Shown: positions 30,730-63,154 of the stretch, piece after piece
Position numbering within the stretch: the first letter of the stretch is position 1
Layout: every line of letters begins with the position of its first letter
Source: Luteitalea sp.
GTDB lineage: Bacteria; Acidobacteriota; Vicinamibacteria; Vicinamibacterales; Vicinamibacteraceae
DNA length: 64,000 bases
Direction: 5' to 3'
Assembly: GCA_009377605.1 (NCBI GenBank)
Contig: WHTT01000006.1
Coordinates: 1-64,000 of the forward strand
Position numbers and translations under genes: made by a program
The notes under the pieces: generated by a model
What the model was told of the DNA's origin: nothing
Database searches by the model: none
What the model saw: the letters and a program-made list of their open reading frames with translations, nothing else

Positions 30730-32410
30730 ATCGCCGGCGCACGAGCGCCGCGAAGGCGCCGCGGAGCGGAGAGCGACGTCGCCGTGATCGCGTGCGGCGC
30801 GCCACGGGAACCGCCATCATGACCTCCTCGACGCGTCCCGCCATCACCTCGCGTCCGAGCGGTGTCAGGCTGAGAGTCTGGTACTTGTCGGCCGACGTGC
30901 GAACCAGGCCGGCGGCGCATATGGCCTCGATCCACTGTTCCACCGTCTGCGGGAGCTCGTCCCGCAGCAGACCGGTGGTGGACAAGCGCGTCAACGGCTC
31001 GGGCAGACCGTCTACCTCACCGACGAGCATGGCCGCGACCTTTCGCCGCCCATACCGCTCACCCGCCCGCGCGATGCCCGACAAGATCTTCCTCACACGC
31101 AACCGAGCCGCCTCGTCCAGCGGGCGGCGGCGATCGCAGTTGCCGCATGCGCCGCACGGCTCGCGCGCGGCGGGATCGCCGAAGTAGCGCAGGATCGTCG
31201 CTCTCAGACAGCCCGCGGCATGGGCGTACGCCACCATGCGGCGCAGCTTCTTGTGATCCAGCTCCTTCCGGCGCGCGACTTCGGCCGCGTCCAACGGAGC
31301 CACCGTGCGACCGGGCAGCTCTTCTCGCGCGTGGTCGATCAGGTACTGCCGCGTCTTCACGTCGCGGTAGTCCCAGAGCAGCGTCGCGTCCGCTGGCCGG
31401 CCGTCACGACCAGCACGACCGATCTCCTGGTAGTAGGCCTCGATCGAGCCTGGAATCGCAAAGTGAATCACGGCCTCGACGTCCGGCCGATCGATGCCCA
31501 TGCCGAACGCGTTGGTCGCGCAGACCACAGGCAAGGCGCCCGAAGCAAAGGCGTCTTGGACGCGGCTTCGCTCGCTATCGCGGAGTCCGCCGTGATAGGC
31601 ATCCGCCGCGATGCCAGCCTCACGCAACGACTCCGCGGATTCTTCTGCACTTGCTCGGGTCGCCGTGTACACGAGTGACCGCCGACCGGCGACCAGCTGA
31701 TGCAGCAGCCGCTCTTTCTCCTGCCTGCCCGACACTGGACGTATCTGCAGGTGAATGTTGGGACGGTCGAATCCCGAGACGAGCAGGTGCGGATTCGACA
31801 AGCCGAGAAGATCGACGATGTCATCGCGTACCTCGGGCGTCGCCGTGGCGGTAAACGCGGCGAGCGGCGGCCGACCGGCTTGGCCGTCACTCCGGCGACA
31901 CGCGCCTGCCGCCGCGCGAAGCCGGCGATAGTCCGGCCTGAAGTCATGTCCCCATTCGGACACGCAGTGCGCCTCATCGACGACGAATCTCGCCACGGGC
32001 AAGTCACACAGTAGGCGGGCGAAGTGATCCGACGCGAACCGTTCGGGCGCCACATACAGAAGGCTGAGATCTCCTTGACGCGCCGCGGTCAGCGCTCGAC
32101 GTCGCGCATCGCTCGGCAGCATCGAGTGCAGGGCGGCCGCACGAATACCGCGGCGATTCAGCTCGTCGACCTGGTCCTTCATCAGCGAAATCAACGGGGA
32201 GACCACCAGCGTGATGCCTGGAAGCAGGACCGCCGGTAACTGGAAGCCGAGAGACTTGCCGGATCCGGTCGGCATGACCGCGAGCACGTCATGGCCGTCG
32301 AGCACGGAGCGGACGAGATCCTCCTGACCGGCGCGGAACGACCCGTGGCCAAAATGACGCTGGAGAGTGGAGAGGAGATCGACCATCGCCGGCAGTGCCG
32401 CGGTAGTCAT
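30728..32410 (-). CDS. recQ: RecQ-family ATP-dependent DNA helicase
   Basis: 560 residues. The start is taken at 32410; an internal ATG at 32386 is also possible, and neither has a clear ribosome-binding site. Helicase motifs are intact: RAGQEDLV (motif 0), MPTGSGKSLGFQLPA (Walker A), SPLISLMKDQ, DEAHC, FTATATPEV, TNAFGMGIDRPDV and QEIGRAGRDG. The RecQ zinc-binding part follows with CGACGNCDRR. No HRDC domain is visible, and the C-terminal ~25 residues are Arg-rich. It unwinds DNA 3' to 5' in recombination and repair. It stands alone on the minus strand, with its stop at the edge of the tandem repeat. Confidence 0.93.
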   Translation of the reverse strand: MTTAALPAMVDLLSTLQRHFGHGSFRAGQEDLVRSVLDGHDVLAVMPTGSGKSLGFQLPAVLLPGITLVVSPLISLMKDQVDELNRRGIRAAALHSMLPSDARRRALTAARQGDLSLLYVAPERFASDHFARLLCDLPVARFVVDEAHCVSEWGHDFRPDYRRLRAAAGACRRSDGQAGRPPLAAFTATATPEVRDDIVDLLGLSNPHLLVSGFDRPNIHLQIRPVSGRQEKERLLHQLVAGRRSLVYTATRASAEESAESLREAGIAADAYHGGLRDSERSRVQDAFASGALPVVCATNAFGMGIDRPDVEAVIHFAIPGSIEAYYQEIGRAGRDGRPADATLLWDYRDVKTRQYLIDHAREELPGRTVAPLDAAEVARRKELDHKKLRRMVAYAHAAGCLRATILRYFGDPAAREPCGACGNCDRRRPLDEAARLRVRKILSGIARAGERYGRRKVAAMLVGEVDGLPEPLTRLSTTGLLRDELPQTVEQWIEAICAAGLVRTSADKYQTLSLTPLGREVMAGRVEEVMMAVPVARRTRSRRRRSPLRGAFAALVRRR

Positions 32411-32456
32411 CGATACGATCTACGTTGGCCCCGGCGATCCTACCATCGTCGAGCAG

Positions 32457-59679: not shown

Positions 59680-59970
59680 TTACATCGGCGGCGCCTCTCG
59701 AGCAGGAGCATCGCGAAACGCCGGAACAGACTGCCGGCTGAACCGCTGGAAGTAGCGGAGGCACTTGTCGCGCCACGCGGCCGCATCTTCGACCTGCCGT
59801 CGCAGTTTGTCGCGCAAGGGCGCCTCCTCGATTGGGGCATAGCGGAGCCAGAGGTCGTAGCCGGTTTCAGCGCTCGCTCGAGCGCTCACCGACAGCGCGA
59901 GAAGCACGACGACCATGCCAGGCACGTATCTCGCGAGCCAAAGAGAGGGAGAGGTCATTGGCAGCATCAC
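59680..59970 (-). pseudogene. GH67 alpha-glucuronidase, internal-deletion remnant
   Basis: 96 codons. A signal peptide (VVVLLALSVSARASA) is followed by ETGYDLWLRYAPIEEAPLRD, the start of GH67 alpha-glucuronidases. It then passes in frame, at about LRRQVED, to AAAWRDKCLRYFQRFSRQSV, the C-terminal end of the same family. An intact enzyme is about 700 residues, so ~600 residues including the catalytic domain are deleted. The start (GTG at 59970, or the ATG at 59955) overlaps the end of the ROK repressor gene. A small in-frame peptide would still be made but without enzyme activity. Confidence 0.72.
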
Positions 59971-61181
59971 ATCAGAGCCGGGGCACCGAAGTGCTTCTGA
60001 AGCACCAGGGCGATCGTGCCGCGAAGCCTGGGCTGGCTGGCGGCATCGGTCGGCACGATACGGGTCGTTGCGTGGGTGAACGTGTGCCGCTTGACCACGT
60101 TCTCGATCGCGGCCCCAATCCGGTTCCAGAAGCGCGTCACCTCGCCCACGATCACGATGACGTCCGGCGCCAAGCCGGTGACGAGCAGCGCCGCCCCGGC
60201 GCCAATGTAGTGGGCTTGGCGGTCGATGGCCGACAACGCTCTGGCGTCGCCCTGGTCCGCGAGACGGACGATATCGTCGAACGTCGGGAGCTGCCGTTTT
60301 GCCGTCGCCGTGGAGTCTCTGCGACGGTTGCGAGAGGTTGCCTCAACGTAATAGCGCACGGCCGCAGAGTTCGAGGCGTACATCTCCCAACACCCCTGGT
60401 TGCCGCACCGACACCGAAGGCCCTCCTCGACCAGCGTGATGTGGCCGAACTCGCCTGCGACACCTGTGGAGCCTCGTATGAGTTGGCCGTTCAGGATGAT
60501 GCCGCCGCCGATCCCTTCCGACACGGTGATAGCGATGAGGTTCCGTACGCTCTCGGTATGCTCGCCGAACCAGAGCTCTGCGAGCGCACAGGCGTTCGCC
60601 GCATTCTCTAGCGCCACCGGCAGCTTCGTGGCTGCTTCGAGCGGCCCCTTCAAGTCCACGCCGTTCCACGCGAGATTCGGCGCAAACACCAACCGCTGCG
60701 ACGCCAGGTCGATGCGCCCTGGCACGCTCACGCCGACTCCTTCGTAGCAAATCTCGGGGTGCGCCTCGATGAGGCGACGGAGGTGCGCGCACAATGCGTC
60801 GATGGCCTGCGCGGGATTCGAAGGCGTCGGGAGAGACTCCTGGGTGATGAACCGCGCATCCAGATCGGCCAAGGCAATCGTGGTCCGGATGGGACGGATG
60901 TTGATGCCGATGATGCCGACGCGCTCCCTGTTCAAGTGAAGAAATCTCGGCCGTCGACCGCGGGGCAGATAGCCGCTCGCGCCTTCCGCGACCCACTTCT
61001 CCTTGATCAATTGCTCGATGATGGCCGAGACGGTGCTCCGCTGCAGCCCCGATTCGCGAGCCAAATCGGCTCGCGAAATTGGCTGATGCCGCCGAATCAA
61101 GTTGAGCACGATCCGGCGGTTGATGTCGCGCGCGGTCTCACTGGTCGCGACGTGAAAATTGGTCAGATCGATCTTGCGCAT
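59967..61181 (-). CDS. ROK-family transcriptional repressor (NagC/XylR-like)
   Basis: 404 residues. The N-terminal winged helix is RDINRRIVLNLIRRHQPISR, ADLARESGLQRSTVSAIIEQ, followed by a ROK domain with IIGINIRPIRTTIALADLDA, VSVPGRIDLASQRLVFAPNL, and GEFGHITLVEEGLRCRCGNQ leading to the zinc/sugar motif CxCGxxGCWE. The HTH makes it a regulator, not a sugar kinase. Its original target was probably the overlapping alpha-glucuronidase gene, now a remnant. Expected ligands are xylose-, glucose- or glucuronate-type sugars. A strong operator lies 24 bases upstream. Confidence 0.9.
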   Translation of the reverse strand: MRKIDLTNFHVATSETARDINRRIVLNLIRRHQPISRADLARESGLQRSTVSAIIEQLIKEKWVAEGASGYLPRGRRPRFLHLNRERVGIIGINIRPIRTTIALADLDARFITQESLPTPSNPAQAIDALCAHLRRLIEAHPEICYEGVGVSVPGRIDLASQRLVFAPNLAWNGVDLKGPLEAATKLPVALENAANACALAELWFGEHTESVRNLIAITVSEGIGGGIILNGQLIRGSTGVAGEFGHITLVEEGLRCRCGNQGCWEMYASNSAAVRYYVEATSRNRRRDSTATAKRQLPTFDDIVRLADQGDARALSAIDRQAHYIGAGAALLVTGLAPDVIVIVGEVTRFWNRIGAAIENVVKRHTFTHATTRIVPTDAASQPRLRGTIALVLQKHFGAPALM

Positions 61182-61385: not shown

Positions 61386-61790
61386 ATGTCGAGCGTCGAC
61401 ACCCTGAAGCGTGTGCTGGGGGCCATGTCAGGCGTGCGGCTCGCTGTCCTCTTCGGATCGGCAGCGAGACGAACCGCCGGGCTCGCCAGCGACCTCGATG
61501 TGGGGATATTGCTCGATCGGAAGACTGAGCCCACATCGCTGCTGGCTGTGACCCTCGAGCGAGCCGTTGGCCGTCCGGTCGACGTCATCTGGCTCGATGC
61601 AGCCCCTCCACTTCTCCGTTTCGAAATCGCTCGAGACGGCGTGGTGCTGGTCGAACGCAGCAGCCACACGTGGGCCGATTTTCGCGCCCACGCGATGATC
61701 GACTGGTGGGATTGGGCACCGACTGCACGAATGATGCACAAGGTGATGGCCGCACGACTGAAGGAGGAGGCGGCGCGTGGTCGGTCGTGA
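61386..61790 (+). CDS. MNT-type nucleotidyltransferase antitoxin (MntA-like)
   Basis: 134 residues from the ATG at 61386. The minimal nucleotidyltransferase core is LAVLFGSAARRTAGLASDLDVGILL, with the GS and DxD catalytic motifs, then VDVIWLDAAPPLLRFEIARDG with a third Asp. MNT proteins paired with HEPN proteins act as antitoxins, modifying the HEPN tyrosine with AMP. The HEPN gene overlaps by 14 bases. A long open frame upstream on the same strand is antisense to the ROK gene and not credible as an N-terminus. Confidence 0.82.
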   Translation: MSSVDTLKRVLGAMSGVRLAVLFGSAARRTAGLASDLDVGILLDRKTEPTSLLAVTLERAVGRPVDVIWLDAAPPLLRFEIARDGVVLVERSSHTWADFRAHAMIDWWDWAPTARMMHKVMAARLKEEAARGRS

Positions 61791-62196
61791 GGTGGTGGTG
61801 ACGAAGGCCGCCCGGGCACGCGCGTGGCTCAATGAGGCAGCCGCCACACTGCTCGCGCCCCTCGACAGGTTCCAGTCCGACCCGAAAGCGCGGGATCTGT
61901 CGCTCTTTTATCTCTTTCTCTCCATTCAAGAGTGCATAGACTTAGCCGCCCACTGGGTGGCCGACGAAGGATGGGCTGAGCCGGACGATGCGGGCTCTGC
62001 GTTCGACGTCCTTGCGGATCGCAGCGTGATCGACCGCGACACCGCGACGGCCTTGCGTGCTGCCGCTGGCCTGCGTAACCGGATCGCGCACGGCTATGCC
62101 CTGCTCGACTACGAGCGGGTGCACCGCGAGGCGCAAGGAGGCGTTCCCGCGCTCCGCAAGTTCCTCGTTTCCATCACAGAAGCAGCGGGTGTGTAA
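61777..62196 (+). CDS. HEPN/DUF86-domain RNase toxin (HepT-like)
   Basis: 139 residues from a GTG that overlaps the MNT gene. The helical HEPN domain has FYLFLSIQECIDLAAHWVAD and, near the C-terminus, LRNRIAHGYALLDYERV, giving the RxxxxH and following Tyr that form the ribonuclease active site and AMPylation target. Pairing and order (MNT then HEPN) match the MntA/HepT type II/VII toxin-antitoxin systems. The active-site residues look intact, so the toxin should be functional. Confidence 0.85.
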   Translation: MVGREVVVTKAARARAWLNEAAATLLAPLDRFQSDPKARDLSLFYLFLSIQECIDLAAHWVADEGWAEPDDAGSAFDVLADRSVIDRDTATALRAAAGLRNRIAHGYALLDYERVHREAQGGVPALRKFLVSITEAAGV

Positions 62197-62209: not shown

Positions 62210-63154
62210 CTAGAGGCTTGATTTCTCGAGGAGCTTCACCAGCGTATGGAGCGTGTGGGAGACCGGCGTCGGAATGCCAAGCTCCGCCCCACGGCGCGCC
62301 ACGTAGCCGTTCAGGGAATCGATCTCCGTGCGCTTCCCGCGCAGGATGTCCTGCCCCGTCGACGACAGCGCATTCGGCATGCTGCCTGCGAGCTTCCAGC
62401 CCGCTTCGACCATGCCGTCTGGCATCTCGACACCGAGCCCGCGCGCAACCGCTACGGTCTCTTCGATGGCGTGCCGCATCACTTCGCGTGTCCCGGGATC
62501 GGCGACCAGCCGCCCATATCTGGTTCGGGTCAACGCGGAGATCGCGTTGTAGGCACAGTTCATGACCATCTTCGTCCAGAGATCCGTTTCGATGCGTGCC
62601 GATACTCGACACGGCACACCGGCCCGGCCGAAGACGTGCGCGACTCGCTCGATGTCGCGCCGGCGCTGATCGCTGGATCCACCGCGCTGCGGGGCATCAC
62701 CGATGATGAGGTCGCCACGGCCGGCATGCGTCACCACGCCCGGGGCCGTCATCTCCGCGGCCACATAGACGGACGCGGGAATGGCATCGATCCGCGTCGC
62801 GGCGCGAATACGCTCTGCACCATCCACACCGTTCTGGAGGCAAACAACAACGGCTCCATTCGACACATGGAGCGCAAGGGTGTTGGCTGCCGCTTCCGTG
62901 TCGGTTGTCTTGACCGCAAACAGGACGAGCTCGGCGTCACCGGCGGCGGCGGGGTCGATAGATGCCGACGCGGGGACCGTCGCCTCGAAGTCGCGGGTCT
63001 GGAGTAGCAGGCCGCTTGCCGTGATGGCGTCGACGTGCGCCGCGCGACCGATGAGTGTCACGGGAGCACCGGCGCGTGCGAGCATGCCGCCGAAATAACA
63101 GCCAACCGCGCCCGCCCCCATGACCGCCACCCGCGGCCACTCCTCAATCGTCAT
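62210..63154 (-). CDS. panE: 2-dehydropantoate 2-reductase
   Basis: 314 residues. The NADPH-binding start is VAVMGAGAVGCYFGGMLARAG, followed by LVLFAVKTTDTEAA and CLQNGVDGAERI. The catalytic Lys is in TDLWTKMVMNCAYNAISAL and the C-terminal substrate-binding part in QDILRGKRTEIDSLNGYV. It reduces ketopantoate to pantoate for coenzyme A synthesis. Several family members act on other keto acids, so the symbol is the family's usual name rather than a proven function. It stands alone, convergent with the HEPN gene. Confidence 0.85.
   Translation of the reverse strand: MTIEEWPRVAVMGAGAVGCYFGGMLARAGAPVTLIGRAAHVDAITASGLLLQTRDFEATVPASASIDPAAAGDAELVLFAVKTTDTEAAANTLALHVSNGAVVVCLQNGVDGAERIRAATRIDAIPASVYVAAEMTAPGVVTHAGRGDLIIGDAPQRGGSSDQRRRDIERVAHVFGRAGVPCRVSARIETDLWTKMVMNCAYNAISALTRTRYGRLVADPGTREVMRHAIEETVAVARGLGVEMPDGMVEAGWKLAGSMPNALSSTGQDILRGKRTEIDSLNGYVARRGAELGIPTPVSHTLHTLVKLLEKSSL

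Follow-up and report, generated by a model that had tools for sequence, protein, structure and literature searches.

A short open reading frame in Luteitalea sp. as the very probable remnant of a secreted GH67 alpha-glucuronidase gene

The window analysed here (the first 64,000 nucleotides of contig WHTT01000006.1 from Luteitalea sp.) contains an ORF of 96 amino acids on the minus strand (59680-59970, GTG start). This ORF is very probably the dead remnant of a gene for a secreted GH67 alpha-glucuronidase that has lost its interior through one in-frame deletion of ~1.87 kb, in a lineage whose GH10 xylanase gene is truncated as well. The direct basis of this reading is the missing stretch itself, the orthology of the locus with that of a congeneric genome, a genome without other matches to GH67, GH10 or GH115, and a surviving stub of the GH10 gene.

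Results

Both ends of a GH67 gene in one reading frame

The 5' part of the ORF (codons 1-53; 59812..59970, minus strand) consists of a signal-peptide-like segment, recognised by eye (codons 1 to ~34; 59869-59970, minus strand), and the first ~19 mature residues. The 3' part (codons 54-96 and the stop; 59680..59811, minus strand) belongs to the other end of the family. In a phmmer search against PDB, residues 35-61 align to residues 1-27 of the alpha-glucuronidase 1gqi/1h41, and residues 51-91 align to its residues 640-680; the whole-sequence E value is 2.7e-5, with the separate stretches being weak (E 2.3 and 0.7). The Pfam family GH67C (PF07477) matches residues 53-84 at profile positions 189-220 of 223 (E 1.7e-5; 24.9 bits, under the 27-bit cut-off), and no match to GH67N (PF03648) was reported for the 96-aa ORF in the Pfam search, i.e., neither terminal domain is present above its cut-off. 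The codons that would correspond to the catalytic domain (PF07488) are missing. Like GH67 alpha-glucuronidases (PF03648, PF07488, PF07477; 1gqi/1h41), the ORF has the N-terminal end of the family, to which its signal-like segment and first mature residues ETGYDLWLRY align, and the C-terminal end, to which the stretch KLRRQVEDAAAWRDKCLRYFQ aligns. In contrast to them, it has no catalytic middle domain at all and retains very little of the N- and C-domains, so that no GH67 activity would be expected of the product. Chance does not reasonably account for the two-end match, because both ends match the same protein, in the right order and at an orthologous locus.

A preliminary description of the ORF, made from the sequence alone, had proposed an in-frame fusion of the N- and C-terminal ends of a GH67 enzyme, and the comparisons with PDB, Pfam and the GH67 protein of the congeneric genome bear this out. 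It had also stated that the signal peptide is intact, which agrees with our inspection by eye, and had given the retained parts as ~25 mature and ~30 C-terminal residues; these lengths need correction to ~19 (taking residue 34 as the end of the signal peptide) and about 42, respectively.

The deletion as seen against the sister genome

The other genome of the genus that was compared ('Luteitalea sp.', G001, contig WHTZ01000077.1; here the sister) possesses the same overlapping pair of a ROK regulator gene and a GH67 gene, and its GH67 gene is intact (722 aa, all three Pfam domains). The pieces of the ORF match codons 4-53 and 677-714 of the sister gene and abut at 59812/59811 (deletion junction 59809..59812, minus strand). 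Codons 2-53 align to sister codons 2-53 without gaps, and codon 55 pairs with sister codon 678; this offset of 623 means that 623 codons (1,869 nt) of the gene are missing in the host. The catalytic middle domain (sister residues 165-484) falls entirely within the missing codons 54-676. As the preliminary description had advised, the gene was thus aligned with an intact ROK-GH67 pair, and what appears is an in-frame internal deletion. The reading frame is preserved across the join, for which the chance expectation is one in three.

We considered a deletion between long direct repeats and rejected it: there is no long repeat at the join, and the longest word shared by the breakpoint neighbourhoods (codons 47-62 and 670-686 of the sister GH67 gene) has 9 bases (GAGGACGCG) and does not coincide with the join. 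Microhomology of up to about 3 nt is possible, as residue 54 (D) could come from either arm (in L012, the left arm reads LRDAYRR and the right one LGKLR). The sister gene probably represents the ancestral state, and a single step would suffice to derive the host gene from it, with the direction and timing of the loss resting on this one comparison within the genus.

The locus and its surroundings

Upstream of the ROK gene lies a gene for a PanE/ApbA-type reductase (62210..63154, minus strand), and from PanE (62226-63139) onward to about 71.6 kb of the host contig the sequence is collinear with the sister contig (C74), insertions aside. On the 3' side, a RecQ-type helicase region (30732..32451, minus strand) directly follows the GH67 gene in the sister and is found in the same orientation ~27 kb away in the host. 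The RecQ region, the ROK-GH67 pair, and PanE and the genes beyond it all have the same orientation and order in both contigs. As the flanks on both sides are collinear, the ROK-GH67 locus is orthologous in host and sister. The intact gene of this close relative is an orthologue at the same locus, and both ends of the ORF match it, which establishes descent from a GH67 gene. A transposition of the ROK-GH67 pair, considered when the flanks seemed different in the retrieved sister locus (L010, identical in sequence to the corresponding part of C74) taken by itself, was rejected in view of this collinearity on the RecQ and PanE sides.

Some features of the surroundings may be recorded here. The ~27 kb between the RecQ region and the remnant (32452-59680) correspond to about 130 bp between these genes in the sister, and the portion of this stretch that was compared (from 54000 on) partly matches sister contigs C5, C14, C17 and C62. 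A nucleotidyltransferase/HepT-like gene pair (61386-62196, assigned by Pfam), presumably a toxin-antitoxin system of the MntA-HepT type, lies on the opposite strand, immediately upstream of the ROK gene. A plasmid search with the junction region gave no match.

The ROK regulator

The ROK-family regulator gene is intact (59967-61181, minus strand; 404 aa, winged HTH and ROK domain), and its stop overlaps the GTG start of the ORF, just as the preliminary description had it. The protein shares 81% amino acid identity with the sister regulator over 404 aa. NagC and Mlc are its best-scoring full-length regulator models, and it has the HTH and ROK domains of such regulators; however, it is far under the cut-offs of both (163 of 650 bits for NagC, 139 of 530 bits for Mlc). 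Since the ROK stop overlaps the GH67 start, the two genes are likely co-transcribed.

Homologues of about 60% identity are found in three further genomes (G036, G121 and G029). In G029, the 60%-identical ROK gene is located between a divergent GH67 gene and a glucuronyl-esterase-like gene (L112:7908-13838, contig C40), an arrangement that may be regarded as a candidate glucuronoxylan regulon. A URO-D gene comes after the ROK homologue in G121 and in G095, which is more distant; in G036, the nearest genes are those for a short-chain dehydrogenase and a GH3 enzyme, with URO-D further on. The gene neighbourhood in G029 fits a role of ROK as a regulator of glucuronoxylan use, and repression of GH67 by it is plausible. 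If the regulator has targets beyond GH67, its retention would be explained.

Other genes of xylan degradation

The host genome is 97.54% complete (draft assembly of 382 contigs). No match to GH67M (PF07488) was found in it, with the same search giving matches in 4 of 14 control genomes. Furthermore, the whole GH67 protein of the sister, used as query against the host genome at E up to 1, retrieved only the two pieces in the window, and the missing 623 codons are present nowhere else in the assembly. The search for another GH67 gene that the preliminary description called for has accordingly turned up none, although a copy in the small part of the genome missing from the assembly is conceivable. 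One 930-aa protein of the host (L121:7428-10220, contig C40), membrane-like by eye, has a weak, sub-cut-off match to the start of GH67C (21-23 bits).

Other families of the pathway give a similar picture. GH115 (PF15979) has no match in the host genome either, and one partial match in the sister (254-326 of 335 positions, i.e., 73 positions; 33 bits). GH10 xylanase (PF00331) is strongly matched in the sister and matched once in a second relative (G002), and has no match in the host or in a third one (G003). Host contig C28 matches the DNA around the sister GH10 gene, and the match extends into the gene itself over its last ~125 bases. What remains in the host is a stub of 39 C-terminal residues (L148:10629-10745, corresponding to 38628-38744 of C28), 35 of which are identical in the sister, where the gene is intact. 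The site is orthologous to that of the sister gene and adjoins a MoaA-like gene; the stub itself is entered, in another frame, by an alcohol-dehydrogenase-like ORF. The loss of GH10 in the host is a rearrangement, unlike the clean deletion in GH67; the two losses may have a common cause and need not be linked. UxaC, which would use free glucuronate, is kept in all four genomes examined, including the host. This enzyme also serves galacturonate use, and its retention is therefore not specific to glucuronate.

These data largely uphold the view, put forward in the preliminary description, that xylan/glucuronate use has changed: as regards glucuronoxylan, the GH67 gene is deleted, no other GH67 catalytic domain was found in the genome and the GH10 gene is truncated. 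It is possible, although we consider it rather unlikely, that the deletion is real and has little ecological meaning, because GH67 comes and goes and the lineage may use xylo-oligosaccharides otherwise. Indeed, GH67M is carried by only 7 of the 60 genomes searched (the host counted among them) and, among the six other genomes of the family, by two (G001 and G002); moreover, the evidence for xylose isomerase is equally weak in the host, the sister and two relatives, with all four genomes being far below the cut-off of the model. Against this stands the difference between host and sister: the host has no match to GH10, GH67 or GH115, but in the sister both GH10 and GH67 are full and GH115 has a short partial match. 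Note that this objection disputes the consequence only and is compatible with the ORF being a GH67 remnant.

An assembler-made join, or a mixture of strains in which the organism or part of its population has an intact GH67 gene, is considerably less probable, and we regard it as very unlikely. The draft state of the genome, with its 382 contigs, would allow for such an artefact, but the join lies inside a contig of 116,552 bp, and the breakpoint neighbourhoods share no more than the 9-base word mentioned above, which leaves no evident repeat that could have misled an assembler. In addition, the missing codons were not recovered from any other part of the assembly, and the truncation of GH10 is an independent loss in the same pathway.

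Selection on the remnants and the search for similar peptides

No stop codon or frameshift has so far appeared in the ORF, and its segments are very short for a test of selection. Between host and sister, the C-terminal core (codons 55-78, 24 codons) has a dN/dS of 0.083 (dS 0.67), compared with 0.133 (dS 0.85) for the intact ROK gene (403 codons); the 33 codons of the signal-like segment give 0.60. No ratio can be stated for the N-terminal mature part or the C-terminal tail because of saturation at synonymous sites; the tail (codons 79-96, 18 codons) is strongly diverged (pN 0.53) and is also variable among intact GH67 proteins. The GH10 stub (39 codons) has a dN/dS of 0.079 (dS 0.60). It has neither a start of its own nor a catalytic core, and its translation appears unlikely; note that it is an imperfect control for selection, as an in-frame GTG, located 27 codons upstream and beyond the GH10-like part, could serve as a start, with the frame being open from there. 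Because this stub is conserved to the same degree, the conservation of the C-terminal core of the ORF would require no function of a peptide. The low ratios of both remnants would most simply reflect selection on the whole enzymes before a recent loss.

Searching with the peptide at E up to 0.01 gave 36 matches in 21 of the 193 genomes of the class (host included). The only genome with both ends in one short ORF is the host, whose match alone covers residues 1-96. Most of the other matches are to the N- or the C-terminal end separately, with about 2 kb between the two, in frames of 700 aa or more. The remaining cases are an N-terminal end at a contig edge (L083; contig C3 of G060), a weak match with an in-frame stop (L099; contig C34 of G067) next to a longer match to GH67, covering sister positions 33-560, that is cut by the fetched stretch, a similarity of the C-terminal motif inside an unrelated-looking frame of 815 aa (L089), and four matches with E values of 0.007-0.009 and no GH67 match at E 1e-3 (L090-L093), three of which (L091-L093) span the position of the join. 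In a scan of the genome collection, which is not independent of the class search as some contigs, judging by their length, are common to both, 31 of 33 loci have a full-length GH67 frame (710-823 aa). One of the other two (L018) is cut by the contig end, and one (L037:4962-5287) belongs to a Rhizobium MAG with a separately broken GH67 gene, of which two N-terminal pieces in different frames and no further match were found; it looks like an independent case of decay. The possibility that the peptide forms a conserved stand-alone family, which the preliminary description had named as the finding that would speak against its reading, was rejected, as no genome other than the host among the 193 has the two ends in one short ORF and the 33 loci contain GH67 genes that are full-length, cut or broken.

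That the fusion yields a functional mini-protein which is exported and kept in frame by selection, for example to serve in binding or signalling with ROK as its regulator, could be argued from the retained frame, start overlap and signal-like segment and from the low dN/dS of the 24 C-terminal codons, but is highly improbable given the equally low ratio of the GH10 stub, the divergence of the tail (which varies in intact GH67 proteins too), the restriction of the two-ended ORF to the host and the prevalence of full-length GH67 genes at the scanned loci.

Discussion

The history of the locus may be summarized as follows. A single in-frame internal deletion of about 1.87 kb would have removed the GH67 gene from codon 53 to about 45 codons before its end, leaving a product that probably has no remaining function, and the same lineage would have truncated its GH10 xylanase gene. 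Without these two enzymes, the lineage would no longer be able to cleave the xylan backbone (GH10) or to strip the resulting fragments of their (4-O-methyl)glucuronic acid side chains (GH67). ROK would have survived because the deletion affected only the gene downstream of it and, in addition, owing either to a recent date of the loss or to other targets of the regulator.

Glycoside hydrolase genes reduced to deletion pseudogenes or other remnants, within operons that are intact in other respects, are a known general kind. The ORF resembles them in having an intact orthologue in the sister, a clean internal deletion and no other copy found in the genome; it differs in that the frame happens to be kept and the remnant still reads as a small ORF. 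It looks like an ordinary gene remnant, not like a small protein of a new kind. The parts of the literature consulted on Luteitalea and xylan and on loss of alpha-glucuronidase/GH67 genes (including PMC6252331) contain no mention of this locus.

One could speculate further that the lineage has recently shed its secreted GH10 and GH67 enzymes and kept ROK and uronate isomerase in the course of a change from a degrader to a scavenger of uronates released by its neighbours; we offer this as a doubtful suggestion. Irrespective of it, the locus provides a clean example in which a glycoside hydrolase gene is lost, its regulator is left in place and a second gene of the same pathway is truncated. A further implication is that remnants of larger genes can take the form of short in-frame ORFs that start like a signal peptide, and that caution is advisable when small secreted proteins are predicted.
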